Notes under the pieces: model-generated
Seen by the model: the letters and a program-made list of their open reading frames with translations, nothing else
The model's database searches: none
What the model was told of the DNA's origin: nothing
Source: a virus
DNA: 33,902 nucleotides
IMG/VR virus record: IMGVR_UViG_3300012929_000036
Coordinates: 1-33,902 of that record
Strand: one strand, 5' to 3'
Made by a program: the position numbers and the translations under genes
Shown here: positions 17,585-33,902 of the stretch, in pieces
How the letters are laid out: each line of letters begins with the position of its first letter
Numbering within the stretch: the first letter of the stretch is position 1

Positions 17585-18535
17585 TTACGGTGTCGTCAGA
17601 TCGTACACGCCGCCATGCGCAGCCTGGTTTCTACATTCCAGAGTGAATTCGACGTTCACCGCCCGCTTGTTCGCGTCGCCCGTGCGCGCCAGCTCGAAGC
17701 TGTTGAACGGACGCAGGTAGGAGACGGCGGCGTAGTCGAAGTCGATCAGCAGCGCCGTGCGGTCCCGGTTGAAGCGGTTGGGCACGATGCGATGCTCGCC
17801 GAAGTCCGACACGTACACGTCGGCCGCTGCGATGATGGTGGCCGGCGACGTGTCGTTCTGCTTGTACTGCGTGGCGATGCCGGCGAAGGCGGAGGCGACG
17901 GCCTTGTTCTTCGGACCGACAATGATGACGTTCGGCTCACCTCCGCTCGTCCAGGCCGACTGGATGACCGTCTTCAGCAGCGTTTCAGTGAATGCCCGCA
18001 GCGTGCCGTCGGTGCGCGCCGCGATGTTGCCGGCGGAGAAGCCGGTGTTGGCGCCGCCGGCTCCCAACGAGGTGTTGGAGGTCAGCCAGTTCTCGAATCC
18101 GCCCAAGGTGCGGGCGGCAGCCGATGAGCCGGTCGCCGACGCCTGGTTCTGCGTCAGGACGAACTCCATGTCGCGCTTCAGTTCCTTGGAGCGCTTGGCC
18201 ATCTGGTAGGCCATGGTGGCGTTGTCGGCCGGGCTGTCGATCGCCTCGTTGGTGCCGGAAACGACGGCGACCTTCTTGCTGATCTGGCAGCGGTTGCCGA
18301 CGCGGACGGCGGAGACCGAGGCATCGGCCGTGTAATCGTCGGCCTCGATCGCCGTGTTCGTGGCGGCAGCGGCGAGCGTATCGGTAGACCACTCATGAAA
18401 AACGTTCGACGCCTTCGTTCGACCGGCCATGGAGAGGAACGGCGTCTGCGTCGGCGCGATGTTGTAGACGAGCTTCGACAGATCTTCGTTGTTGATGCTG
18501 TCGTAGGAATCGAAGGTATTCGTTGGTTGTGCCAT
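17585..18535 (-). CDS. Major capsid protein, DUF5309 / SU10 type
   Basis: Predicted 316-residue major capsid protein. The N terminus N-T-F-D-S-Y-D, then L-V-Y-N-I-A-P-T-Q-T-P-F-L-S (about 23-36), H-E-W-S-T-D-T-L (48-55) and K-R-S-K-E-L-K-R-D-M-E (about 117-127) match the DUF5309/SU10-type HK97-fold capsid family, whose members are near 300-330 residues. Gly/Ala-rich loops near 150-170 and the C-terminal F-E-L-A-R-T-G-D motif agree. GAGG lies 8-9 nt before the ATG. The scaffold gene is directly upstream. This is one of the most certain calls in the window. Confidence 0.92.
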   Translation of the reverse strand: MAQPTNTFDSYDSINNEDLSKLVYNIAPTQTPFLSMAGRTKASNVFHEWSTDTLAAAATNTAIEADDYTADASVSAVRVGNRCQISKKVAVVSGTNEAIDSPADNATMAYQMAKRSKELKRDMEFVLTQNQASATGSSAAARTLGGFENWLTSNTSLGAGGANTGFSAGNIAARTDGTLRAFTETLLKTVIQSAWTSGGEPNVIIVGPKNKAVASAFAGIATQYKQNDTSPATIIAAADVYVSDFGEHRIVPNRFNRDRTALLIDFDYAAVSYLRPFNSFELARTGDANKRAVNVEFTLECRNQAAHGGVYDLTTP

Positions 18536-19938: not shown

Positions 19939-20949
19939 TCAAGGGCCACGGGAGCGCAGCCATTTGAGGATTTCCGCGTCATCTTCCTCAATCTCCCGGC
20001 GCTTGGCCTCCAAGGTATGTTCATTGGCGGCGATCATCTGCATTTTCAACTGTAATTGCCTGCGGAACTCCTTGAACTCCAATTCATCTTTCAGGACAGC
20101 TTCCTCGGCCAGATGAGCTAGCATTTCTCCAATGTTTGGGGTCCTGACAACAGGACCAAAAACCGCACTCTCCTGCTGTACCTCCTTGGCGATCTTGGAG
20201 AATATTTCGGCGATGATACGGCGGCGTTCATCCTCGTTCTGAGGATAGACAATGTGGCCATCCGGCATGAGGATGCGGCGAGGGCGCTTGAGTTGTTTTG
20301 TTGGACCAGCACCTCCTGCGGCGGCGACACCGAAGGATAGAGTCTGTGAAAATTCTATCCAGGTTCGCAACGCTGTAGTATCAGATTCGTCTTCCGGCAA
20401 GTCGGCGGCAGCTCCCGCCGATGAATTATAAGTCCGTCGCGCATTTGCGACTGAAGTTGAAAATTGGAGAAATCCGACTTCTACCACCAACACATCGTTG
20501 GCCTGCGCAACGACATTGGTGAGGGCGGGGCCGGGGCTGACATATCCGCGAGGAAACTTGGCATTTGTGGTGACCAGCGCGAATTCATTGGAAAGCGCGC
20601 TGTTATCAGCGGCTAGCAAGACTCCGCGCTCCGTCAGCCCGTCCGATGAAAAAACCCGGATAATAAGTTGGGGGCAGTAATCGTCCGTAAGATTCGTCTC
20701 AAGTGCCTGAATCTGGCCTTTAACGTTCCCGGAGATAGTTTGTGCGGAGAGCGCGGTAGAAATAAACTGCGTCCATAATCGGTTCGTATTTGCCGAGCCC
20801 GTGCCCGCCAAAGATTGGGCATTGCTACCAGCGCCCGGAGTTGTGATAAGACCGAGACGACCTGCGAATGTCGTCAAATCCCAGGAGGCGGAAAAGGCTG
20901 GGGCAATACCAGGAGCGGCGGTAGAACCGAGATAGAACCGCGTCGCCAT
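19939..20949 (-). CDS. Virion protein: beta N-domain plus coiled-coil tail
   Basis: Predicted 336-residue protein. The N-terminal 215 residues start M-A-T-R-F-Y-L-G-S and form an apparent beta-rich domain (R-G-V-L-L-A-A-D-N, V-L-V-V-E-V-G-F) seen in various phage structural proteins; the C-terminal 100 residues form a charged coiled coil (E-F-K-E-F-R-R-Q-L-Q-L-K, E-A-K-R-R-E-I-E-E-D). The junction K-R-P-R-R-I-L-M-P-D-G is basic. The ATG shares its A with the portal stop (TGATG), so it is translated with the portal. A tail, neck or fibre-like role is possible; I cannot choose between them. Confidence 0.65.
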   Translation of the reverse strand: MATRFYLGSTAAPGIAPAFSASWDLTTFAGRLGLITTPGAGSNAQSLAGTGSANTNRLWTQFISTALSAQTISGNVKGQIQALETNLTDDYCPQLIIRVFSSDGLTERGVLLAADNSALSNEFALVTTNAKFPRGYVSPGPALTNVVAQANDVLVVEVGFLQFSTSVANARRTYNSSAGAAADLPEDESDTTALRTWIEFSQTLSFGVAAAGGAGPTKQLKRPRRILMPDGHIVYPQNEDERRRIIAEIFSKIAKEVQQESAVFGPVVRTPNIGEMLAHLAEEAVLKDELEFKEFRRQLQLKMQMIAANEHTLEAKRREIEEDDAEILKWLRSRGP

Positions 20950-23072
20950 CAGCTTTCATCGACTTGGCTGACCTTGCCATCAGGGCCGCGCGTGAACTTA
21001 TAGGTGCGCTGAGCGTTCTTGGCCTTCTCAAGCTGGAACTTCATCAGGGCTTCCATGGTCGATAGCTTGGTCTTCAACTTGGCCAGTTCCGCATCGGCGG
21101 CCGTCTGCTGAAGATCAGTCTGCGCCTGGGCTTGACTCACCTGACTGTCCAGAATGGTCTGCTGCATATCGATGCCGGCTTTCTGCTTCGTCTGCATCAG
21201 ATCGATCTGCTTGCCCTGGAGATCGAGGCCGGCGATCTGCACGTTCGTCTGCGCCACCTGCGCGTCGGCCTGCGCCTTGACGACGGCAGGATCAGGCGGC
21301 TTCGGCGCGGGCTTCGGCGCGTTCGACGGATCGGTGAAATAGTTCTGCACGCCCTTGCGGCCCAGGAGCGCCGGCAGATGCGCGAGGCTGTTGTAGATGT
21401 TCTGCAACGTCACGATGGGACCATCCGCCCCGCCCTGCATCTGGATGGCCTGGGTCTGTACCCCGATCATCTGCATGAGCTGGGCGAGCTGCTGCTGCTT
21501 GTCGCCGGTGCCGATGCCGACGTTGACGACGAGATCGAACTTGTTCTCCCATTCGCGCGGGTCGATGGATTTCCACTCGCCGTTACGCAGGCGGATGACA
21601 CGCGCCTTGCTCTGGTTGCTGCTCACCGTTTTCATGATGAGCCACATGAGGTCTTTGTATCCCGTCTCGGCGAACACGCGGGCGATCAGTTTCATGCGCT
21701 GCTGCGCCGCGTTCATGATCTGCGTGATGCCGGAGGCCGTTTTGTTCAGGGAATTAGCGTCGATGCCTTGATTGTAGCGAGTGACTCCGGTTCGATTCTC
21801 GCGGATCGTGTCAAGGTACTCCAATAGTGGGAATGAAGAAGAAATGATAAGCTGTTGCTCGACGGGAAGGATATGTCCTTGGGATGGCATAGCTCCATTT
21901 TTAAGCCGAACGATCCCGCCAGGCCGCGATACGAGTAGGTCATCGAGGTTCACCTGATCGCTGACTTGCAGGCGTGAGTTCACGGCCTGATACATGTTGT
22001 CGAGAATCTGCCGCAGGATCGTGGACTTGATGATCTGCAAGTCCATCACGAGATCGGCGATGGAGATGCCGAAGAACCGATGCGGCATGATGATCGGGGT
22101 CATACTGACGAACGGGATCGGGCCGTCCCAGGGCTCGTCATCCAGGATGATCTGCCCGGTGCCGCCGACCGTGACCTTGCGGCGCTCCGCGATGCCGTCG
22201 CCGTCGGAGTCGTATTTCAGGTAACACTCGACGATCCATTTCTCGCGGGTGGCGCCCTGCCCGACGACGTCCGGCATGACGGTTTCGGTGAAACGGTCGC
22301 GGATCATCGACTCCTGGTTCCACACTTGATCGTTCTCATCGGGGATGCTGTTGACCAAGTCCTCGGGATAGCCTTCCTCGATCAGGTCGGACACGGTCTT
22401 GCGGATGCGATGGCCGACGAAGCGCGCCGTCTGTATCTCGCGCGCCTTGGAGTCGATCAGGAACTCCTCCGGCGGCACGCCCATGACGCGGCAGCGACCG
22501 ACGCTCTTGTTCCGATAGTTGTAGGAGACCGACATGTCGCCGTTGGCGCCGGCCGTCTGCACGCTCTCCGGGATGATCTCGATGTCCGGATCGGCGGCGG
22601 CGATGGCGTAGGTCTCGCCATCCACATCCCTGACCTCGTGGACCTCGGTGTCGTCTTCCTTCTCCCACCAGCCTTTGATGATGCCATTCTTCTGGATCAG
22701 GGCATCCTTGAAGGCGCTGTAGGTGACGAGAAAGCCGGGGTTGTCGCGCAGGAAAATCCAGTTGATGTACTCAGTTGCCTCGTTCGCGATGGCCTCGTCT
22801 TCCGGTCCCTGCGGCGCGAAGGAGCAGGCATCGTCGCCGCCCATGAAGATGTCCATGAGCGCCGGCATGATCCACTCGACGGTGTCGGAGACCTCGGAGC
22901 AGACGACCTTGGAACGGCCGTCGATTTCGTTGCCCAAGGGCTCACCAAGGTAGAACATGAGCGAGCGGCGACGCTGCTCGGAAAGCTCGCCCTCGATCCA
23001 GCCGACGGCGGCATTGATCTCCTGCGAGATCAGGGCCGAGAGAGCGGGATCGATATTGCGGTCATCGGCCAC
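20949..23072 (-). CDS. Portal protein, P22-like size
   Basis: Predicted 707-residue portal, close to the 725 residues of P22 gp1. Landmarks are the N-terminal W-I-E-G-E-L-S-E-Q-R-R-R-S-L-M-F-Y-L (about 24-41), S-K-V-V-C-S-E-V-S-D-T-V-E-W (about 53-66), the clamp region, P-H-R-F-F-G-I-S-I-A-D-L-V (about 325-337), and a Gln/Ala-rich helical C-terminal barrel (about 610-690). The portal forms the dodecameric DNA entry ring. I start at GTG 23072, after GGGA at 7 nt, because further upstream frame overlaps the preceding gene with non-portal sequence. Very confident family assignment. Confidence 0.92.
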   Translation of the reverse strand: MADDRNIDPALSALISQEINAAVGWIEGELSEQRRRSLMFYLGEPLGNEIDGRSKVVCSEVSDTVEWIMPALMDIFMGGDDACSFAPQGPEDEAIANEATEYINWIFLRDNPGFLVTYSAFKDALIQKNGIIKGWWEKEDDTEVHEVRDVDGETYAIAAADPDIEIIPESVQTAGANGDMSVSYNYRNKSVGRCRVMGVPPEEFLIDSKAREIQTARFVGHRIRKTVSDLIEEGYPEDLVNSIPDENDQVWNQESMIRDRFTETVMPDVVGQGATREKWIVECYLKYDSDGDGIAERRKVTVGGTGQIILDDEPWDGPIPFVSMTPIIMPHRFFGISIADLVMDLQIIKSTILRQILDNMYQAVNSRLQVSDQVNLDDLLVSRPGGIVRLKNGAMPSQGHILPVEQQLIISSSFPLLEYLDTIRENRTGVTRYNQGIDANSLNKTASGITQIMNAAQQRMKLIARVFAETGYKDLMWLIMKTVSSNQSKARVIRLRNGEWKSIDPREWENKFDLVVNVGIGTGDKQQQLAQLMQMIGVQTQAIQMQGGADGPIVTLQNIYNSLAHLPALLGRKGVQNYFTDPSNAPKPAPKPPDPAVVKAQADAQVAQTNVQIAGLDLQGKQIDLMQTKQKAGIDMQQTILDSQVSQAQAQTDLQQTAADAELAKLKTKLSTMEALMKFQLEKAKNAQRTYKFTRGPDGKVSQVDES

Positions 23073-23457
23073 GGGCGTTCCCACGTTGCGGCGGGTTCTG
23101 GAGATACTTATCCACGTCTCGCGCCATGAAGTCGTGCATCTGCATGTAGCGCTGATCAGCCAACTCCGGCGTCGGATATGACGGCCAGTTCTCCATCCCG
23201 ACTCGATCAGCAAAATCCATGGCGGTTCTCACGGGGACGATAGTTCCATGCCAGACGGTCGGGATGTTGTAGAACCTGCCCTTAGGGCCGGCCACAACGG
23301 CTTGATACACGGTACTGATATCTCCGTTCGGATGGATCACACCACCGCCACGACCGGCAGTCGACAGATTATCCAGATGGTGCTGATAGAGGAACCGTTC
23401 CTGCGGCGTCAACTTCAGGACCGCTATATTGTCGGCTCGGCCGCGCACGTCAGGCAC
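23062..23457 (-). CDS. Phage protein with Y-N-I-P-T-V virion-type domain
   Basis: Predicted 131-residue protein. The central part (about residues 45-115) contains the pattern S-T-V-x-x-x-V-V-A-G-P-K-G-R-F-Y-N-I-P-T-V-W, followed by A-M-D-F-A-D-R-V-G and a helix with R-Y-M-Q-M-H-D-F, which is a small domain I know from phage internal or structural proteins where it is usually part of a larger chain. Here it is free-standing and directly upstream of the portal, overlapping it by 11 nt. The start is GTG at 23457. Function unknown. Confidence 0.65.
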   Translation of the reverse strand: MPDVRGRADNIAVLKLTPQERFLYQHHLDNLSTAGRGGGVIHPNGDISTVYQAVVAGPKGRFYNIPTVWHGTIVPVRTAMDFADRVGMENWPSYPTPELADQRYMQMHDFMARDVDKYLQNPPQRGNARGR

Positions 23458-25008: not shown

Positions 25009-26409
25009 TCAGATGTACAGCCGACTCACCTTGCCGTAGTTGATCGGCTTCATGACGGGATCGAGCTCATGCGCCAGGCCGAGCGCGCCATAGCGGAACC
25101 CGTCGGCGGCGTGCGATGCCCAGTTGTGGAGAGGGTTGGACTTGAAAATCTTCAGCCGGTCGTCCCACTCGCGATGGTAGTCCTTCAGGGCGCGGATGCC
25201 GCGGTCGCACTTGTCACGGTCGAACACACAACGCGGCAGGACGCTGCGGGCCGCCTGGATGCCATCCTCGATACGCTGGCGCGGCAGGATGCGTAGGTTG
25301 AAGCAGCCGAGCGAGCGCAGGGTCTCCTCGCGGCTGAAGCCGGTGCCGATCTCTTTGGCGGCGGCATCGTGCGGCAGGATGTAATCGGCATAGGCATAGG
25401 GCTTGTCGCGCAGCACCTTGACGTAGTGGTCGAGGCCGACGCCCGACGCCTCATAATAGTCGATGAACCGGAACTGCGTGCCGACCGTCTGGATGAACCA
25501 GATCGCCGTGCTATCGCCGATGCCCAGATCCCAGGCTGTGCGGACGAGGTAGCGCGGGTCGTAGTTGAGGGCGGTGATTCGCCCCTCCTTCTCGGCCGCC
25601 GCCATCTCCTTGCCGTAGTAGGCGCCCTCGACGGCGGCATCGAATGAACACTCGAATTCCCGCTCGAACTGGTCGAGGCTCATGGAGCGCTTCAGGCTGG
25701 CAAGCTCCTCCTCGGGAAGGATGCGAGTCTCGGATGCGCGGTACATGAGGGCGAGCCAGTCGTTGTCGATGACGCGGCGGCGCATCGGATCGCCTTCGGG
25801 ATGCGTCCAGAACCCGAACTTCGCCTGCTCGTAGAGGTTCCAGAATTCATTCCGGCCCATGGGCGTGCCGATGAACACGGCCCAACCCTTGCGGTCAGCC
25901 AGCCACGGCCGCACGACCTCCGACCAGATGCGCGGATCCATCTGGGCGTACTCGTCGAACACCACTCCGTCCCCATATATGCCGCGCAAAGAGTCGGGGT
26001 TATCGGCACCTGTGATGGTGACGCGGGCGCCGCCGGGGAGTTCGACATAGAGTTCGGACTCGTTCTTCTGCGCTCCCGTGATGGTCATGCCGTACTGCTG
26101 AAGGTAGGTCCAGGCGATCTGTTTGGCCTGCCGCAGGAACGGTGCCACGTACCAGAAGCGCGGGTGCTGGAGCGGCGGCAAATGCATCAAAGCGCGCTCC
26201 TGGTGGAACGCGGCGGCACTGTGCAGGAGCTGGTTCACCAGGGCGACGGTCTTGCCGAACCGGCGGTGGCAGACCAGGACGTTGAAGCGCTTCAGCTTAC
26301 TGTGCAGTTCGGATTGCTGGACGCGCGGCGTATAGCCGGTTTTTACGATGCTAGGTTGTGTTCGTCGCTGGGGAACAGCCATGGGGCTCAATGATAGAGA
26401 CCTTGCCAT
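25009..26409 (-). CDS. Terminase large subunit
   Basis: Predicted 466-residue packaging motor. Walker A-type C-H-R-R-F-G-K-T lies at residues 47-54, Walker B V-V-F-D-E-Y at 149-154 and the coupling motif G-T-P-M-G at 181-185. The C-terminal nuclease has W-D-L-G-I-G-D-S at 293-300 and Y-I-L-P-H-D-A near 343-349, with acidic residues for metal binding. Length fits Terminase_6-type podovirus enzymes. Two ATGs are possible (26409 and 26382) and neither has a strong ribosome site. The portal and head genes follow downstream after a run of small genes. It translocates and cuts concatemeric DNA. Confidence 0.93.
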   Translation of the reverse strand: MARSLSLSPMAVPQRRTQPSIVKTGYTPRVQQSELHSKLKRFNVLVCHRRFGKTVALVNQLLHSAAAFHQERALMHLPPLQHPRFWYVAPFLRQAKQIAWTYLQQYGMTITGAQKNESELYVELPGGARVTITGADNPDSLRGIYGDGVVFDEYAQMDPRIWSEVVRPWLADRKGWAVFIGTPMGRNEFWNLYEQAKFGFWTHPEGDPMRRRVIDNDWLALMYRASETRILPEEELASLKRSMSLDQFEREFECSFDAAVEGAYYGKEMAAAEKEGRITALNYDPRYLVRTAWDLGIGDSTAIWFIQTVGTQFRFIDYYEASGVGLDHYVKVLRDKPYAYADYILPHDAAAKEIGTGFSREETLRSLGCFNLRILPRQRIEDGIQAARSVLPRCVFDRDKCDRGIRALKDYHREWDDRLKIFKSNPLHNWASHAADGFRYGALGLAHELDPVMKPINYGKVSRLYI

Positions 26410-26415
26410 GTCTTG

Positions 26416-26577
26416 TCATGCCCGGTGTGGAAGGGCGCCGATGAAGGTCGTTTGGGATGCTGCGCTCTTCCCAGGTGGCTGCCCGGAAACCGAAAGCCAG
26501 TGTAGCAGATCATCAGGCCGGAATATACTCCTCATCGCCGGCAAGCGCGGGCCAGAACAAGCGGCGCAGGCATACAA
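26416..26577 (-). CDS. Possible TTG-started mini-protein before TerL
   Basis: A 53-residue frame beginning with TTG at 26577. GGGGAGA lies 10 nt upstream, overlapping the end of the previous gene. The sequence has C-A-A-C near the N terminus and F-R-P-D-D-L-L-H-W-L in the middle and ends 6 nt before the terminase ATG. An internal ATG (at residue 15) would give a 39-residue version. It fills the only gap between small genes and terminase, but composition alone cannot prove it. Confidence 0.4.
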   Translation of the reverse strand: MYACAACSGPRLPAMRSIFRPDDLLHWLSVSGQPPGKSAASQTTFIGALPHRA

Positions 26578-26580
26578 GTA

Positions 26581-26769
26581 TCAACGGTCTCCCCTACGGT
26601 CACGTTGCCATTGCGCATCTTCCATCGCTGAATCCAACTGTTCCTGCAATTCCAGAATCCATAGTTCCAACGCACGGATATGTTTCCGCAACTCCGCCTC
26701 ACGTTTCAATCCGATGTCGTCAATTTTATCACAGTCATCCATCGCCGCCACCACAACTGAACCATACAT
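26581..26769 (-). CDS. Small coiled-coil protein
   Basis: Predicted 62-residue protein whose C-terminal 45 residues form a strongly charged coiled coil (R-E-A-E-L-R-K-H-I-R-A-L-E-L-W-I-L-E-L-Q). I place the start at the ATG at 26769, which has AAGGGAAG about 7 nt away; a second ATG at 26742 would remove nine mostly hydrophobic residues and avoid overlap with the preceding short frame. It resembles other small coiled coils of this phage (62-residue gene at 23907-24095). Function unknown. Confidence 0.55.
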   Translation of the reverse strand: MYGSVVVAAMDDCDKIDDIGLKREAELRKHIRALELWILELQEQLDSAMEDAQWQRDRRGDR

Positions 26770-26861
26770 ACCTTCACTTCCCTTCCACGATCCTCCGGCA
26801 AGCAATTCCAATGTTCAAGCTCCTCTTTTCGCGTAACTGCTTCGTTGATGAATCTAATCAT
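26706..26861 (-). CDS. Possible overlapping mini-protein (weak)
   Basis: A 51-residue frame starting M-I-R-F-I-N-E-A-V-T-R-K-E-E-L-E-H-W-N in the gap between two small genes. The first 30 residues look protein-like and are not a shadow of any other gene, but the last part overlaps the coiled-coil gene by about 64 nt and becomes Trp/Arg-rich, as antisense or out-of-frame sequence often does. No convincing ribosome site. Included because otherwise 26770-26905 would be empty. Confidence 0.3.
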   Translation of the reverse strand: MIRFINEAVTRKEELEHWNCLPEDRGREVKVCMVQLWWRRWMTVIKLTTSD

Positions 26862-26905
26862 GCCGACCATTTCTCATCCAAGCGGCGGAGGCAGTCAAGC
26901 ATCGA

Positions 26906-27103
26906 TCACTCGCGCAATAGCCACGAACGCCCCATGTCATCGCCAGGCCGGCGTAGCCTCATGACCATACGATGAACGGCATATTCCTGGAGAAACACAC
27001 TGCCCCATGACCTGAGAGGCAAATCGTTCATTAGCGTCCGGGCGATCTCGTTGATTCTGAAAGGCGGCAAATCCGGCAGCCATGGGCCGAGCGGCTTAAG
27101 CAT
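26906..27103 (-). CDS. Hypothetical mini-protein
   Basis: Predicted 65-residue protein, M-L-K-P-L-G-P-W-L-P-D-L-P-P-F-R-I-N-E-I-A-R, basic in the C-terminal half (R-M-V-M-R-L-R-R-P-G-D-D). The ATG at 27103 overlaps the TAA of the preceding TTG-started gene by 8 nt. No clear Shine-Dalgarno site, so coupling is likely. I recognise no domain. Part of the mini-gene string between the putative small and large terminase genes. Confidence 0.5.
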   Translation of the reverse strand: MLKPLGPWLPDLPPFRINEIARTLMNDLPLRSWGSVFLQEYAVHRMVMRLRRPGDDMGRSWLLRE

Positions 27104-27266
27104 CGGACGGCGGCTCACGATCGCGCAGGCACCAGGCCACAAGCTGATCCGAAAGCGCTTCCAACTCCTCCTGCGTCCATTGGGGGTTTTGGTCGGCTAC
27201 GCGCAAATGAAGGCCATAACACTCCAGCCGCAAACGTGCCAAGTCGGCGTCGGAGAGGTTAAGCAA
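27096..27266 (-). CDS. Mini-protein with TTG start
   Basis: Predicted 56-residue acidic helical protein (L-N-L-S-D-A-D-L-A-R-L-R-L-E-C-Y-G; W-T-Q-E-E-L-E-A-L-S-D-Q-L). It has no ATG or GTG. The TTG at 27266 overlaps the stop of the upstream gene and is preceded at 6 nt by AGGGAGA, an excellent ribosome-binding site. The repeated A-D-L-A and E-E-L-E-A-L patterns and the stop directly after an acidic tail make it a convincing gene in spite of its size. Function unknown. Confidence 0.65.
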   Translation of the reverse strand: MLNLSDADLARLRLECYGLHLRVADQNPQWTQEELEALSDQLVAWCLRDREPPSDA

Positions 27267-27471
27267 GGCCGATCTCCCTCAACAACCACTCGCGCGCCTC
27301 CTCGAACGTAAGGCCGGCCCAACCGTAGGCGGGTGCGGCGGGAAGGAAATAACTCGGCACATTCATCTGCGCTCGCAGTTGGCGCCGCAGCGCGTCAGCC
27401 AGTTCGGCCGGAGTGCTGCCGTAGGTGCCATCGGACGGCAAACCCTGCGATCCAGGCGGTAGACCCTTCAT
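27259..27471 (-). CDS. Hypothetical mini-protein
   Basis: Predicted 70-residue protein from ATG 27471: M-K-G-L-P-P-G-S-Q-G-L-P-S-D-G-T-Y-G, a helix A-E-L-A-D-A-L-R-R-Q-L-R-A-Q-M, then Y-F-L-P-A-A-P-A-Y-G-W-A-G-L-T-F-E-E-A-R-E-W broken by Pro. An upstream ATG (27567) would extend it into the previous gene with Arg/Leu-rich sequence and no ribosome site, so I prefer the shorter form. It ends in an overlap with the TTG-started gene. Function unknown. Confidence 0.55.
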   Translation of the reverse strand: MKGLPPGSQGLPSDGTYGSTPAELADALRRQLRAQMNVPSYFLPAAPAYGWAGLTFEEAREWLLREIGLA

Positions 27472-27538
27472 CCCCAAACCGTACCTCAAACGGAACAGGC
27501 GCGCAAGCGGGATTCGCAAGGAACCGCAGCCGAGAGGC

Positions 27539-27751
27539 TCAAGACGGGCGGATGGGACCCAAAGCATGCTTGCGCCAATAATCGAACTGCACACCCATGG
27601 GTGCATTAGGATTGGCAGGCGTCGGGCAACGCGCATCAAGAAACGCACGCCACTGCGCGGCGGTTGAACCAACCTCGTTGGGAAACAATTCAGACGCCCA
27701 CTCCTCGATCAGGACTGCCCAGCGCGCGTTAGAGACGGGGTGGATCGGCAT
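27539..27751 (-). CDS. Hypothetical mini-protein
   Basis: Predicted 70-residue protein, M-P-I-H-P-V-S-N-A-R-W-A-V-L-I-E-E-W-A-S-E broken across a predicted helix, then a Pro/Asn-rich stretch (C-P-T-P-A-N-P-N-A-P) and F-D-Y-W-R-K-H-A-L-G. Start could instead be GTG at 27787 (12 more residues). No good ribosome site for either. It is the first mini-gene after the structured gene-free stretch and is likely on the same transcript as the large terminase. No family recognised. Confidence 0.55.
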   Translation of the reverse strand: MPIHPVSNARWAVLIEEWASELFPNEVGSTAAQWRAFLDARCPTPANPNAPMGVQFDYWRKHALGPIRPS

Positions 27752-28078
27752 CAGGACGAACGACTCTGACAGACACGGGTGCCGCACCGGCCATACATGA
27801 GGATCGTCCCATCGTATGACGGCGGCGTAACGTCTCGCCAGATGTGAGCGGGGTAGGGTCCAGCGTCCCCACCGCAGCGGTCCACCCCGGCCGGATGGGG
27901 ACCCGCCCGATGGGGTGCCGGGGTGGTCGGAGGGCCAGCCAGCCGCGCTGGCAACCGCCTGTGTAGCGGTTGCTCTGGACTGCGACTATGGCGGAAAACT
28001 GTCATTCCTGTGGCGCTATGAACCGTGTTTGTTACCCCATGGTCGCGCCGGGGTAACAGCCGTTTCCGATCGAGGCCA
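27752..28078. other. Gene-free stretch with clustered inverted repeats
   Basis: About 330 bp without a convincing gene on either strand. It contains four perfect inverted repeats: 9-bp arms at 27882-27890 and 27918-27926 (27-nt loop); 6-bp arms at 27938-27943 and 27947-27952 (3-nt loop); 8-bp arms at 27951-27958 and 27966-27973 (7-nt loop); and 8-bp arms GTTACCCC/GGGGTAAC at 28031-28038 and 28050-28057 (11-nt loop). The minus-strand transcript of the putative small terminase would run through it. Terminator, structured RNA, packaging site and origin are all possible; long open frames here are Pro/Arg-rich shadows. Confidence 0.6.
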
Positions 28079-28549
28079 TCAACAGCTTGGTACGTCATCT
28101 GCATCCACATCGGCATCAGAGCTGGAATGCTGCACCGATGAGTTCGCAGCATGTCCCGAGTTAGATACAGTCGAGACTGCATTCGATACAGTCGATGTTT
28201 CACGTGAAACATCGCGCGGCGTCACGTCCGTCATATGCTCGATTGCCGGCATGCCCGGCGAGCGAGTGACGCCGGTGAGGACTTGGAGGACGGCGTCGGC
28301 CATGGCGCGGGCATCGTCCGGTGCGTTGGCGACCTTGCCAAGTGCCCGATCCAGCAGGGAATTCGCGGCAGTTACGGCCACCGCATCGCTCTCGCTGGTC
28401 AATGCCTTGGCCAATCGATCAATTGCCGGCCTGACATGCTTCCATGCTAAACGTCTAGCCTGCAAGCCCTTCCGAATTTGGATTGAATGGTGATCGCCGC
28501 GACTGAACCGTTTTTCCTTCGGTTCATCATCGCCTTCAACGAGTGCCAT
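28079..28549 (-). CDS. Putative terminase small subunit-like protein
   Basis: Predicted 156-residue protein. Residues 38-73 (R-P-A-I-D-R-L-A-K-A-L, then A-V-T-A-A-N-S-L-L-D-R-A-L-G-K-V) follow the helical-repeat pattern seen in small phage proteins, including some small terminases, with A-A-x-x-L-L-D-R-x-x-G-K. The C-terminal 45 residues are Ser/Asp/Val-rich, low complexity and contain two S-T-V-S-N repeats (119-123, 126-130) next to D-V-S-R-E-T-S (113-119), encoded by the parS-like palindrome. It precedes the terminase cluster. Start at ATG 28549 fits the promoter at 28555-28583. The terminase role is inference from position. Confidence 0.6.
   Translation of the reverse strand: MALVEGDDEPKEKRFSRGDHHSIQIRKGLQARRLAWKHVRPAIDRLAKALTSESDAVAVTAANSLLDRALGKVANAPDDARAMADAVLQVLTGVTRSPGMPAIEHMTDVTPRDVSRETSTVSNAVSTVSNSGHAANSSVQHSSSDADVDADDVPSC
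28164..28195. repeat. 11-bp direct repeat pair beside the parS-like site
   Basis: GATACAGTCGA occurs at 28164-28174 and again at 28185-28195, a 21-bp period, so the reading frame is kept and the encoded S-T-V-S-N motif is duplicated. The second copy overlaps the left edge of the parS-like palindrome (28193-28214). The repeats may be protein binding sites linked to it or simply a small in-frame duplication in a low-complexity tail. Confidence 0.8.
28193..28214. promoter_or_regulatory. parS-like ParB-binding palindrome
   Basis: A 22-bp perfect palindrome whose centre (28196-28211) is TGTTTCACGTGAAACA, identical to the widely conserved bacterial chromosomal parS 16-mer bound by ParB. It is flanked on both sides by matching CGA/TCG bases. 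It lies inside the C-terminal coding region of the putative small terminase gene. No ParA or ParB gene is in the window, so a host ParB would have to act on it. The sequence match is exact; the function in this phage is inferred. Confidence 0.8.
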
Positions 28550-28554
28550 GTCGC

Positions 28555-28583
28555 ATTCTAAATCGCCTCGAGACGCCTGTCCA
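28555..28583 (-). promoter_or_regulatory. Candidate leaderless promoter of the 28079-28549 gene
   Basis: Minus-strand TGGACA (28578-28583), 17-bp spacer and TAGAAT (28555-28560); each box has five of six consensus matches. The ATG at 28549 starts the sixth base after the -10 box, so the transcript would begin at the start codon. No Shine-Dalgarno element precedes that ATG, consistent with leaderless translation. Confidence 0.6.
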
Positions 28584-28774
28584 TCCTTCGTTTCCGGCCC
28601 CGTGGTGTGCAAGTCGGCACGGAAGACTGCTTGGCAGGGGTAGGTGCGGGAACGCGCTGTACGGGCTTTAAACGCGGTTGGCAGTGAGAACACGAACGCG
28701 GCTGTAACAATTCGTGACTTGCATCCGTCCCTTACTGGGCACTTCATGAGGTCATGAACATGATGGAGGCGATG

Positions 28775-28876
28775 ATGACTGCTTCCCAATACCGCCGGCT
28801 TGAGCTTCTCGCTGCTTGGCGTTTCTTCGTGCAGTATCGCACGATTGGCGGCTTCAACCACCTCTCTCGGGCATAG
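28775..28876 (+). CDS. Possible 33-residue coupled mini-ORF
   Basis: A 33-residue plus-strand frame starting ATG 28775 with GGAGG 5 nt upstream (28765-28769): M-T-A-S-Q-Y-R-R-L-E-L-L-A-A-W-R. It is amphipathic and basic. Its TAG stop overlaps the AGGAG-type ribosome site of the next gene (28875-28880), so it could serve as a leader that couples translation. ATGs further upstream in the same frame are also possible. No homologue known to me. Confidence 0.45.
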   Translation: MTASQYRRLELLAAWRFFVQYRTIGGFNHLSRA

Positions 28877-28887
28877 GAGCGCACACC

Positions 28888-29247
28888 ATGACTGCACAAC
28901 ACACGCCGGGGCCGCTTAGGCCGATCGAGGTTATCGGCGGCGGGGGCACGGGCTTTCATCAATACATCATCGATGCGGGCGGCCGGAAGATCGGCTGTTG
29001 CTGGGGACCGGCCGAGGAGAAGATGGCGAACGCCGCGCTGTGGGCCGCCGCTCCGGAGACTGCGGCCGAGTGCGACCGCCTGCGCGCGGTCAATGCGGAG
29101 CTGCTGACGGCGCTGAAGGGGCTTGAGGAGTTTGCCGGTCAGATCACCGGCTTCACTTTCCCCGAAGGCAGCCGCTCGCCGTTTGAGACTTTGGCGTCCC
29201 GTTGCAAAACGGCCCGCGCCGCCATCACCAAGGCCGGACAGTCATGA
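28888..29247 (+). CDS. Phage protein of the H-T-P-G-P family
   Basis: Predicted 119-residue protein with the widespread but uncharacterised phage pattern M-T-A-Q-H-T-P-G-P-L-R near the N terminus, M-A-N-A-A-L-W-A-A-A-P-E (residues about 49-60), L-L-T-A-L-K-G-L-E-E (about 74-83) and a C-terminal A-R-A-A-I-T-K-A. AGGAG lies 7 nt before the ATG. It is on the plus strand, following the mini-ORF, and converges on the helicase gene with about 250 bp between stops. Function unknown; commonly near early or regulatory genes in temperate and lytic phages. Confidence 0.8.
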   Translation: MTAQHTPGPLRPIEVIGGGGTGFHQYIIDAGGRKIGCCWGPAEEKMANAALWAAAPETAAECDRLRAVNAELLTALKGLEEFAGQITGFTFPEGSRSPFETLASRCKTARAAITKAGQS

Positions 29248-29406
29248 CAGCGCGCGCCGGCCGGATATCATCGGGCACAGCAGGTGGCGCTCCGCGAACG
29301 CGCCCGGTTGGCTGTGTTCGCATTCGTCTGACACCAGCCCCGCGCCCGTAGGTAGGCGCTGGTTGTCGATTCAGGTCTAGAAAGGTAAGACTCGCTGTAG
29401 GGGGAG

Positions 29407-29512
29407 CTGTTGGCCTGTTGGTGTGTTGGGGTATGTATATACCAACACCCCCCAACAGCCCCCAACACCCCCAACAGATTTTGATTAACACATTGATTTA
29501 TCATTGATAACC
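29407..29512. repeat. Inverted-repeat block plus AT-rich TTGAT repeats
   Basis: Between the convergent stops at 29247 and 29501. The left side has TGTTGG at three places (29408-29428), the right has CCAACA four times (29442-29477). The core can fold as GTGTTGG(GG)TAT-GTAT-ATACCAACAC (29423-29448, broken for length). It is followed by an AT-rich stretch (29478-29512) with three TTGAT repeats running into the end of the helicase gene. A bidirectional terminator is the simplest explanation; repeats plus an AT-rich block beside a RepA-type gene also fit an origin. Confidence 0.6.
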
Positions 29513-30550
29513 ACCGCCAACAAGATAGTACTTGCCGTTCCCGAGTCGCGAAATCTCATCCTTCCTGTGCATCTGTCCAAGCAACCATCTGATTGAACTA
29601 CGGTTCTTTCCAATCGCCGCCGCGATTTCCACTGGCGTCATGGGTTCAATGTTCGCTTTTAGTACTTTTATGATGTCCAGGCGGGCTTCCGACTTCCTGA
29701 AATCCTCGGCCGGCCCCAACAGGGTGACGCATCCGGTATCCGGATCGAATTGGAGCGCCACCGAGCGCTCGGCAACGTCCCTCCCGCGGATATGCAGCTC
29801 GCCCGTCAGGGACCCTGCCGCACGCTCCAGTACGAGCGTCGTGTCGGCGGCGCCTGACAGTCCCATCGTGCCGCTGATCCGCATCACCGGGTCCTCGGCC
29901 GCGCCCTTATTCGTGTGATGCACCAGCAGCATCGGCAAGCCGTTGTCGCGGGCCAGCTTGTGGAACGGCGTGATCGTCGCATAATCCTGGTCGTAGACGC
30001 CCTTGGCGCGGTCCTGCGCGCCCTTCACCTTGGCCAGTACGTCAACGATAACCAGACGCGGATTCTCGCGCGAGGCTATCCAACCCTCGATTCTATCCAT
30101 CCCGCCCTGGTCGAGCGTCGCCCATTCGGTGGCTATTTCCAGCCCGTGCGGGGCCGGCGCGCCCTGCAAAATGGCGCGCATCCGATCGGCTATCCGGCGC
30201 TCCGAGTCCTCAAGCGCCAAGTAGAGCACGTCCCCAGGCTCGCAGGGAACGCAGCCAAGGGCCGAGCCGCCACGCGCCACCGCCAGTGCCCAATCCAGGA
30301 CGATGAAGCTCTTGCCTCGGCTTTTAGGCCCCGCGAGAAGTGATACGCCCTCCGGCACGAAATTCGGAATTGCCCACCGGATCGGCGCATACTTCGTTCC
30401 CGCGATGTCGTCCGCCCGCCGCGTCGGCAGCGGAACCGTCGAATAACCGTTCCCCTTGTAGCGCGCCGCGTTGAGCCGCAGATTCGCCTCAAACGTCCGC
30501 GACGCCGATTTAGAGGCGAGCGGCCTTGTCGGCTTGTCGCCGAACGCCAC
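29501..30550 (-). CDS. RepA-type AAA helicase / DNA replication ATPase
   Basis: Predicted 349-residue RecA-fold ATPase. G-P-K-S-R-G-K-S (about 74-81) is Walker A; L-Y-L-A-L-E-D-S (about 109-116) and R-L-V-I-V-D (165-170) give the acidic Walker B region; L-L-V-H-H-T-N-K (about 208-215) is the RepA-type H-H-T motif. The C-terminal domain (about 255-349) includes a winged helix-like segment. This matches the AAA_25/RepA hexameric helicase family encoded by RSF1010-like replicons and many phages. It would unwind DNA for replication. Start is GTG 30550 with GGGA at 6 nt, or TTG 30562. It follows a methyltransferase with overlapping signals. Confidence 0.88.
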   Translation of the reverse strand: MAFGDKPTRPLASKSASRTFEANLRLNAARYKGNGYSTVPLPTRRADDIAGTKYAPIRWAIPNFVPEGVSLLAGPKSRGKSFIVLDWALAVARGGSALGCVPCEPGDVLYLALEDSERRIADRMRAILQGAPAPHGLEIATEWATLDQGGMDRIEGWIASRENPRLVIVDVLAKVKGAQDRAKGVYDQDYATITPFHKLARDNGLPMLLVHHTNKGAAEDPVMRISGTMGLSGAADTTLVLERAAGSLTGELHIRGRDVAERSVALQFDPDTGCVTLLGPAEDFRKSEARLDIIKVLKANIEPMTPVEIAAAIGKNRSSIRWLLGQMHRKDEISRLGNGKYYLVGGGYQ

Positions 30551-30552
30551 GG

Positions 30553-31038
30553 TCAGTCCCAACCCTTGAGCGCGCGATAGCTATGCCAAGCGATCGTGAC
30601 GGCACCCGATCCAATGAATAAATCCGTGAACTCGTCGCCAGCTTCGATGCCAATCGCATCGAACAGCCAATGACAAACTTTCTCCGGCTTCACGCCACAT
30701 AGGCCGCGCTTGAGTGTTATGTTCTCGGCACACCAATCCCGCACCGTTGGCATGGTGCGGTCGCCCTTGCGCCAGCCCCGGACGATGATCGGTTCCCAAG
30801 CATAGGCAACGCGGACGTTCGGCTTGAAGATCGCGAACGGCTTGACCCACGCGAATATCCGCACGTCTTCGGGACATAGCGGGAGAAGGTAGCGAAGGGA
30901 CGGACTCGACGCTGACAAAGCCCACGCGGCGTACTCCGAATCGAGCCGCTGAATCAACGCAGCATGGTCGACCTCATCGCAGCCGTAGAGTTTGCGCGCT
31001 TGCCCGACATATGGAGGGTCGGCGTATGCGAAGCGCAT
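30553..31038 (-). CDS. Orphan DNA methyltransferase (D-P-P-Y, beta-type order)
   Basis: Predicted 161-residue adenine/cytosine-N4 methyltransferase-like protein. D-P-P-Y is at residues 7-10, F-A-W-V-K-P-F near 62-68, W-E-P-I-I-V-R-G at 81-88, K-P-E-K-V-C-H-W-L-F-D at 117-127 and F-I-G-S-G-A-V at 141-147. The order (catalytic motif first, SAM-binding motif last) is of the permuted beta type. No restriction endonuclease is nearby, so it is an orphan enzyme for self-protection or gene control. The exact base and site cannot be told. The ATG is 2 nt after the upstream stop. Confidence 0.85.
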   Translation of the reverse strand: MRFAYADPPYVGQARKLYGCDEVDHAALIQRLDSEYAAWALSASSPSLRYLLPLCPEDVRIFAWVKPFAIFKPNVRVAYAWEPIIVRGWRKGDRTMPTVRDWCAENITLKRGLCGVKPEKVCHWLFDAIGIEAGDEFTDLFIGSGAVTIAWHSYRALKGWD

Positions 31039-33794: not shown

Positions 33795-33815
33795 GTCCCT
33801 GATTTCGTCAGGGAC
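33795..33815 (+). terminator. Hairpin after the DUF6948 gene
   Basis: Perfect 8-bp inverted repeat GTCCCTGA (33795-33802) and TCAGGGAC (33808-33815) with a 5-nt loop, 14 nt after the stop. It is stable and well placed to end the plus-strand transcript, but no T-run follows; instead its right arm merges into the tandem G-rich repeat. It could be a terminator without a U-tract or a structural element. Confidence 0.5.
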
Positions 33816-33902
33816 GGGTACGGGGACGGGTACGGGTACGGGGACGGGTACGGGTACGGGGACGGGTCCGGGTCCGGGTACGGGGACGGGTACGGGGACG
33901 GG
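33811..33902. repeat. G-rich 6-bp tandem repeat array at window edge
   Basis: About 90 bp built from GGGTAC and GGGGAC (with two GGGTCC variants) in tandem, running off the end of the window. It has runs of three or four G every six bases, enough for G-quadruplexes on the plus strand. The array begins in the right arm of the hairpin at 33795-33815. In any frame it codes only short dipeptide repeats, so it is most likely non-coding. Confidence 0.85.

Follow-up and report, generated by a model that had tools for sequence, protein, structure and literature searches.

Chromosomal-type parS site in a phage genome

The analyzed window (33,902 bases, 61% G+C), which is the whole of a podovirus-like IMG/VR record classed as linear, was found to carry a site identical to the parS sequence of bacterial chromosomes. 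The site consists of a 16-bp core, TGTTTCACGTGAAACA (28196-28211), with no mismatches to the chromosomal parS consensus, extended to a 22-bp perfect palindrome with 11-bp arms, CGATGTTTCACGTGAAACATCG (28193-28214); by the criterion of a 16-bp inverted repeat it is a parS of the chromosomal type. The best explanation, which we hold with moderate confidence on the basis of sequence comparisons, is that of an orphan host-type parS, which would capture the ParB protein of the host for positioning or inheritance of the phage genome by the host ParABS system.

Under Markov models of order 1-3, the expected count of the 16-mer in the window is 2.5-4.6 × 10^-6, while that of the 22-mer is 4 × 10^-9 to 1 × 10^-8. 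The core is the sole parS-like site of the window at up to three mismatches (shuffle mean 0.03), and the extended site is its longest perfect palindrome, the runner-up having 16 bp. The preliminary description had placed a chromosomal parS 16-mer inside a 22-bp perfect palindrome; the exact match and its coordinates were confirmed, and the chance figure given there (8 × 10^-6) is of the right order. Two 14-bp direct repeats, TTAGATACAGTCGA (28161-28174) and TTCGATACAGTCGA (28182-28195), located on the plus strand, 93% alike and 21 bp apart, adjoin the palindrome, and the second of them shares its first 3 bases.

Gene content of the phage record

In silico analysis distinguished the following genes, all on the minus strand: (i) a major head protein gene (17585-18535; phrog_1328); (ii) a gene of an SU10-type podovirus portal protein (20949-23213; phrog_1216 and PF23899); (iii) the gene of the terminase large subunit, TerL (25009-26409; phrog_2, E 1e-38, and PF03237); (iv) a gene encoding an AAA_25 (RepA/DnaB-like) replicative helicase (29501-30562; Pfam/PHROG profile matches); and (v) a scaffold gene. 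The record also contains an open reading frame (ORF) of a RusA-like resolvase (DUF1064; Holliday junction resolvase PHROG). Following the direction of transcription, the start of TerL lies 1.79 kb downstream of parS, and on the opposite side of the site the first gene identified with confidence is that of the helicase. Neither ParB (PF02195) nor a ParA-type ATPase (PF13614) was found in the record, which is possibly incomplete, and these searches bear out the earlier remark that no ParA/ParB gene is present. A tyrosine integrase (PF00589) was likewise not found in the record, and the tRNA and Rfam scans of the window were empty. On the right (33800-33902), the record closes in a degenerate GGGGACGGGTACGGGTACG repeat, which may mark the end of the genome or of the assembly. 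The idea of CtrA sites, with alphaproteobacterial phages making use of host cell-cycle control, was rejected, as the window contains no TTAA-N7-TTAA.

The palindrome is located within a minus-strand ORF (28079-28897) of uncertain start (an internal ATG gives 28079-28561), whose C-terminal tail reads D-V-S-R-E-T-S through parS. Only 6 of the 13,824 synonymous spellings of this peptide hold the 16-mer, and therefore the thing to be explained is the DNA site and not the peptide. Comparison of the ORF with Pfam and PHROG gave no family at significance, and no relatives of it were found in IMG/VR. Its middle part (approximately 76 amino acids) weakly resembles a DUF5681-like ORF placed directly upstream of TerL in contig L186 (35%, E 6e-4), and because of this resemblance the ORF may encode a small-terminase-like (TerS-like) protein, an assignment that is weakly supported. 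The earlier placement of the palindrome inside a small-terminase gene thus retains one homology, but no significant profile match, and parS itself lies outside the portion homologous to the L186 ORF. Moreover, coding-like codon usage is confined to about 28240-28420. The surroundings of parS lack it, so that the site belongs either to a tail under little constraint or to sequence that is not truly coding.

The codon-usage scan detected no coding-like ORF between the end of TerL (26409) and the parS-spanning ORF. Two stretches between the helicase and terminase genes (26410-28079 and 28900-29500) show no recognizable coding signal, which is unusual for a 34-kb phage.

Probable host and its parS sites

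Among bacterial genomes, the closest TerL relatives (approximately 52% identity) belong to elements of Dongia and other Rhodospirillales, which makes a host among the Alphaproteobacteria probable, though not proven. All ten of the tested bacterial genomes with TerL relatives contain one to three exact parS sites, with the same letters as the core of the window site, and these mostly cluster over a few kb, the arrangement expected of sites close to the origin. A cognate ParB is thus expected in the probable host group.

The occurrence of the same 16-mer on chromosomes of the host group would also agree with capture of a parS-containing host chromosome fragment by recombination, the fragment having no role in the phage. 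We consider such an origin very improbable. The flanks of the chromosomal parS sites in the ten genomes do not match those of the window site and the 22-mer was found at none of their 20 sites, both of which speak against a recent transfer of host DNA into the phage; in addition, no homologue was found in IMG/VR for the surrounding ORF, and repeated recapture would be needed across phages.

Distribution of the site among relatives

No nucleotide relatives of the window were found among cultured phages, and the nearest cultured terminases, those of Pelagibacter, Rhodoferax and Methylophilales phages, are approximately 42-45% identical. The closest contig, L032 (85% identity in TerL), stops inside TerL; neither a close relative spanning the parS region nor one sharing the tail of the parS-spanning ORF was found. 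In a set of 80 viral TerL relatives (576 kb, 39 of them extending 1.9 kb or more beyond TerL on its upstream side), parS at up to two mismatches was absent. Exact parS was also absent near all 80 TerL relatives from bacterial genomes (782 kb), which yielded one two-mismatch site, and portal relatives together with five cultured relatives had no parS at up to one mismatch. Hence parS does not characterize the family, and the check proposed in the preliminary description, a search for the 16-mer at the same place in related phages, returned TerL relatives devoid of it. Conversely, seven contigs fetched by parS alone (L037, L051, L054, L055, L080, L124 and L148) carry homologues of the TerL, portal or head proteins of the window. 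Judging from these contigs, gain and loss of parS look patchy across phages that share such homology.

A separate observation concerns a TerL relative, Ochrobactrum phage vB_OspP_OH (L168), in which a two-mismatch parS-like palindrome, CGTTCCACGTGAAACA, is placed at position 14, inside a 55-bp terminal repeat.

Orphan parS across phage collections

A 30-base parS query matched 344 (redundant) of 50,697 cultured-phage records, while two control palindromes, permuted but unchanged in composition and flanks, matched 7 records each. This is an approximately 50-fold excess, from which it follows that roughly 98% of the matches in phages have a cause other than chance. The matching records include Listeria A511-like, Microbacterium, Arthrobacter, Gordonia, Bacillus phi29-like and Lactobacillus phages, as well as Microviridae. 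None of the ten commonest names among them is enterobacterial; enterobacterial hosts are not known to have a chromosomal ParABS. In IMG/VR, the 16-mer occurs in at least 120 stretches vs. 11 for a permuted 16-mer (at least 11 times as many), and the 22-mer in 30 stretches. The ParB_N domain (PF02195) is missing from 96 of the 98 distinct parS-bearing viral records tested and present in the other two.

The reading of parS varies by locus: some ORFs give DVSRETS and others MFHVKH, and elsewhere the site is non-coding, so that the recurring thing is the parS DNA and not an encoded peptide. In Microbacterium phages (L368 and L369; also records L355, L370 and L371), parS is located in the linker of one DNA-binding protein, at two non-homologous places, and it has decayed in phage Fireman (L369), while phage Metamorphoo (L368) keeps it. 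Synonymous-site conservation in these phages accordingly does not show parS fixed at one homologous place; the two linker places and the decay in Fireman point to selection on the DNA element. Metamorphoo and Fireman constitute a natural parS-plus/minus pair.

These data bear on the view that the palindrome matches parS only incidentally, being an operator that serves another regulator or else a feature that is passive or arose by chance. The TerL relatives without the palindrome and the direct repeats adjoining it would be in keeping with this, but the chance expectation of about 3 × 10^-6, the share of phage matches not attributable to chance, and the complete agreement with a motif whose universal reader is known leave it decidedly improbable. 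As for the wider pattern, there is an approximately even chance that orphan chromosomal-type parS is a widespread and repeatedly evolved phage device, found in phages of many host groups including non-sporulating ones, by which the host ParB clamp (and SMC) would serve as a general genome-handling service during infection or carriage; the window would then represent a podovirus-like phage of Alphaproteobacteria in which this element is found close to the packaging genes.

Proposed role of the site

ParB dimers load at parS as CTP clamps, slide outwards and link the DNA to ParA and SMC. The palindrome would be an orphan copy of this centromere site of the host chromosome, at which, after infection, host ParB dimers would load as CTP-dependent clamps and from which they would slide onto adjacent phage DNA. 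By way of ParB, the phage genome could be tied to host ParA, for segregation and positioning, and to SMC. It might thus stay close to the origin or the poles of the host and reach the daughter cells if division precedes lysis (slow infection, pseudolysogeny or extrachromosomal carriage), and all of this could be achieved without parAB genes of the phage itself.

Binding of host ParB in vivo is very likely, given an exact site and a phage that lacks a ParB of its own. The recruitment of host ParB suggested in the preliminary description receives indirect support from the exact site, the lack of a phage ParB, the same parS in the probable host group and the phage-wide excess, and the phage is probably borrowing the segregation protein of its host. 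Given binding, we would put the prospects of segregation or positioning being the benefit at about one half. Counting against the carriage reading are the lack of conservation among TerL relatives, the single parS of the window and the fact that no repressor or other lysogeny gene was recognized in it.

The lack of a recognized lysogeny gene fits a virulent phage, in which ParB might instead be bound for the lytic program. The site could then act (i) as a decoy titrating or misplacing ParB, (ii) by upsetting host segregation or initiation control, or (iii) by loading SMC to compact replicating DNA. Orphan parS is present also in the Listeria A511-like phages. If these phages are strictly lytic, prophage segregation is not needed there. 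One site per genome, however, would make a weak sponge before phage replication, and engineered parS placed on lambda and bound by fluorescent ParB stopped neither replication nor lysis, although the ParB was itself engineered (PMC13190303). Taking both sides together, we regard a lytic function as possible but unlikely.

Another role considered for host ParB at parS is in packaging or late-gene control, for instance as a roadblock or organizer near the terminase genes and the pac region, and several positional observations are consistent with it. The parS of the window is placed 1.8 kb upstream of TerL, and in L051, L077, L080 and L111 the site precedes TerL or falls within its initial part. 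Among clusters of parS-bearing contigs with the portal family of this window (portal identity confirmed by PHROG in 10 of 10), parS is upstream of the portal gene in 13 of 18, which is a weak signal (expected 9.2, P = 0.04), and it never lies within the portal ORF. Against this, parS is far from the packaging genes in OneinaGillian, Quhwah and Woes (right end), the TerS assignment is weak, and virtually all TerL relatives package their DNA without parS; a packaging function is accordingly improbable. Of the packaging role proposed earlier there remains this positional hint, while its other ground, a small-terminase gene around parS, is weakened by the slight TerS homology and the position of parS outside the homologous part.

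Comparison with known systems

The proposed capture of host ParB by an orphan parS has a close counterpart in Bacillus phage phi29. Meijer and colleagues reportedly described in 2005 an orphan parS of phi29 that is bound by the host Spo0J (ParB) protein and required for the phage genome to become trapped in spores. We found a parS-like sequence, TGTTTCACGTGGAACA, in the phi29-like phages PZA, Goe6 and Goe15. The features shared with the window are a phage without parAB, a parS of the host type (in the window, that of the probable host group) and the implication of host ParB. However, the phi29-like site has one mismatch to the 16-mer and is located at the end of the upper collar gene, whereas that of the window is a perfect 22-bp palindrome, and the phi29 host is a sporulating Firmicute, whereas the window phage is podovirus-like with hosts that are probably alphaproteobacterial.

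A comparable strategy is known from SGI1, whose parS mimics hijack the ParABS of the IncC helper plasmid (PMC10954446). Like the window phage, SGI1 is a mobile element that has parS-like sites but lacks the matching parAB genes, and it gains stability via the ParB of another replicon; it differs from the window phage in being an integrative element that uses the parS type of a helper plasmid, and not the chromosomal type.

Partitioning phages, such as P1 and cluster A mycobacteriophages like RedRock, have their own parABS (PMC7157519). They are extrachromosomal prophages without an integrase that use parS for inheritance, and the window likewise has parS and no detected tyrosine integrase. In contrast to the window, which has neither gene, phages of this type encode ParA and ParB, and the parS of RedRock is element-specific and composed of 8-bp direct repeats, unlike the chromosomal-type parS found here. 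Judging from the genes detected, the window phage is not a partitioning phage with its own parABS.

Chromosomal parS sites follow the TGTTTCACGTGAAACA consensus and occur in 1-20 copies near oriC (PMC10197239). The window site has the identical 16-mer, but is placed on a phage genome and not near a chromosomal origin.

Hijacking of parS by elements without parAB is therefore already known (SGI1, phi29), and the window adds a podovirus-like phage case. In the open-access journal literature covered, no phage-borne chromosomal parS was found apart from artificial parS on lambda and from phages that encode a parABS of their own, and the frequency of orphan chromosomal parS in phages appears undescribed there. 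ParB-parS is usually viewed as chromosome or plasmid machinery; the phage-wide excess of orphan parS would make its clamp-loading system a common target for parasites, with a bearing on the positioning of phage genomes, their inheritance in pseudolysogeny, and their protection or compaction.

Additional arrangements of parS in phage records

Several records depart from the single-site arrangement. Arthrobacter phage Ranunculus (L356) has two exact and one near-exact parS (at 2791, 3886 and 5001), contained within about 2.2 kb of its portal/protease region, and an annotated ParB-like gene a few kb off, so that a self-encoded ParB operating with chromosomal-type parS is possible in this phage. 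Three short viral contigs (L050, L077 and L086) contain three to five exact parS in about 1 kb, resembling a multi-site centromere; no ParB was found in L050 and L077, the two records scanned. Finally, parS matches of 16-21 bases occur in records of gokushoviruses and other small ssDNA phages (e.g., H156, H174 and H182), with genomes of 5-6 kb, in which clamp loading would be surprising.
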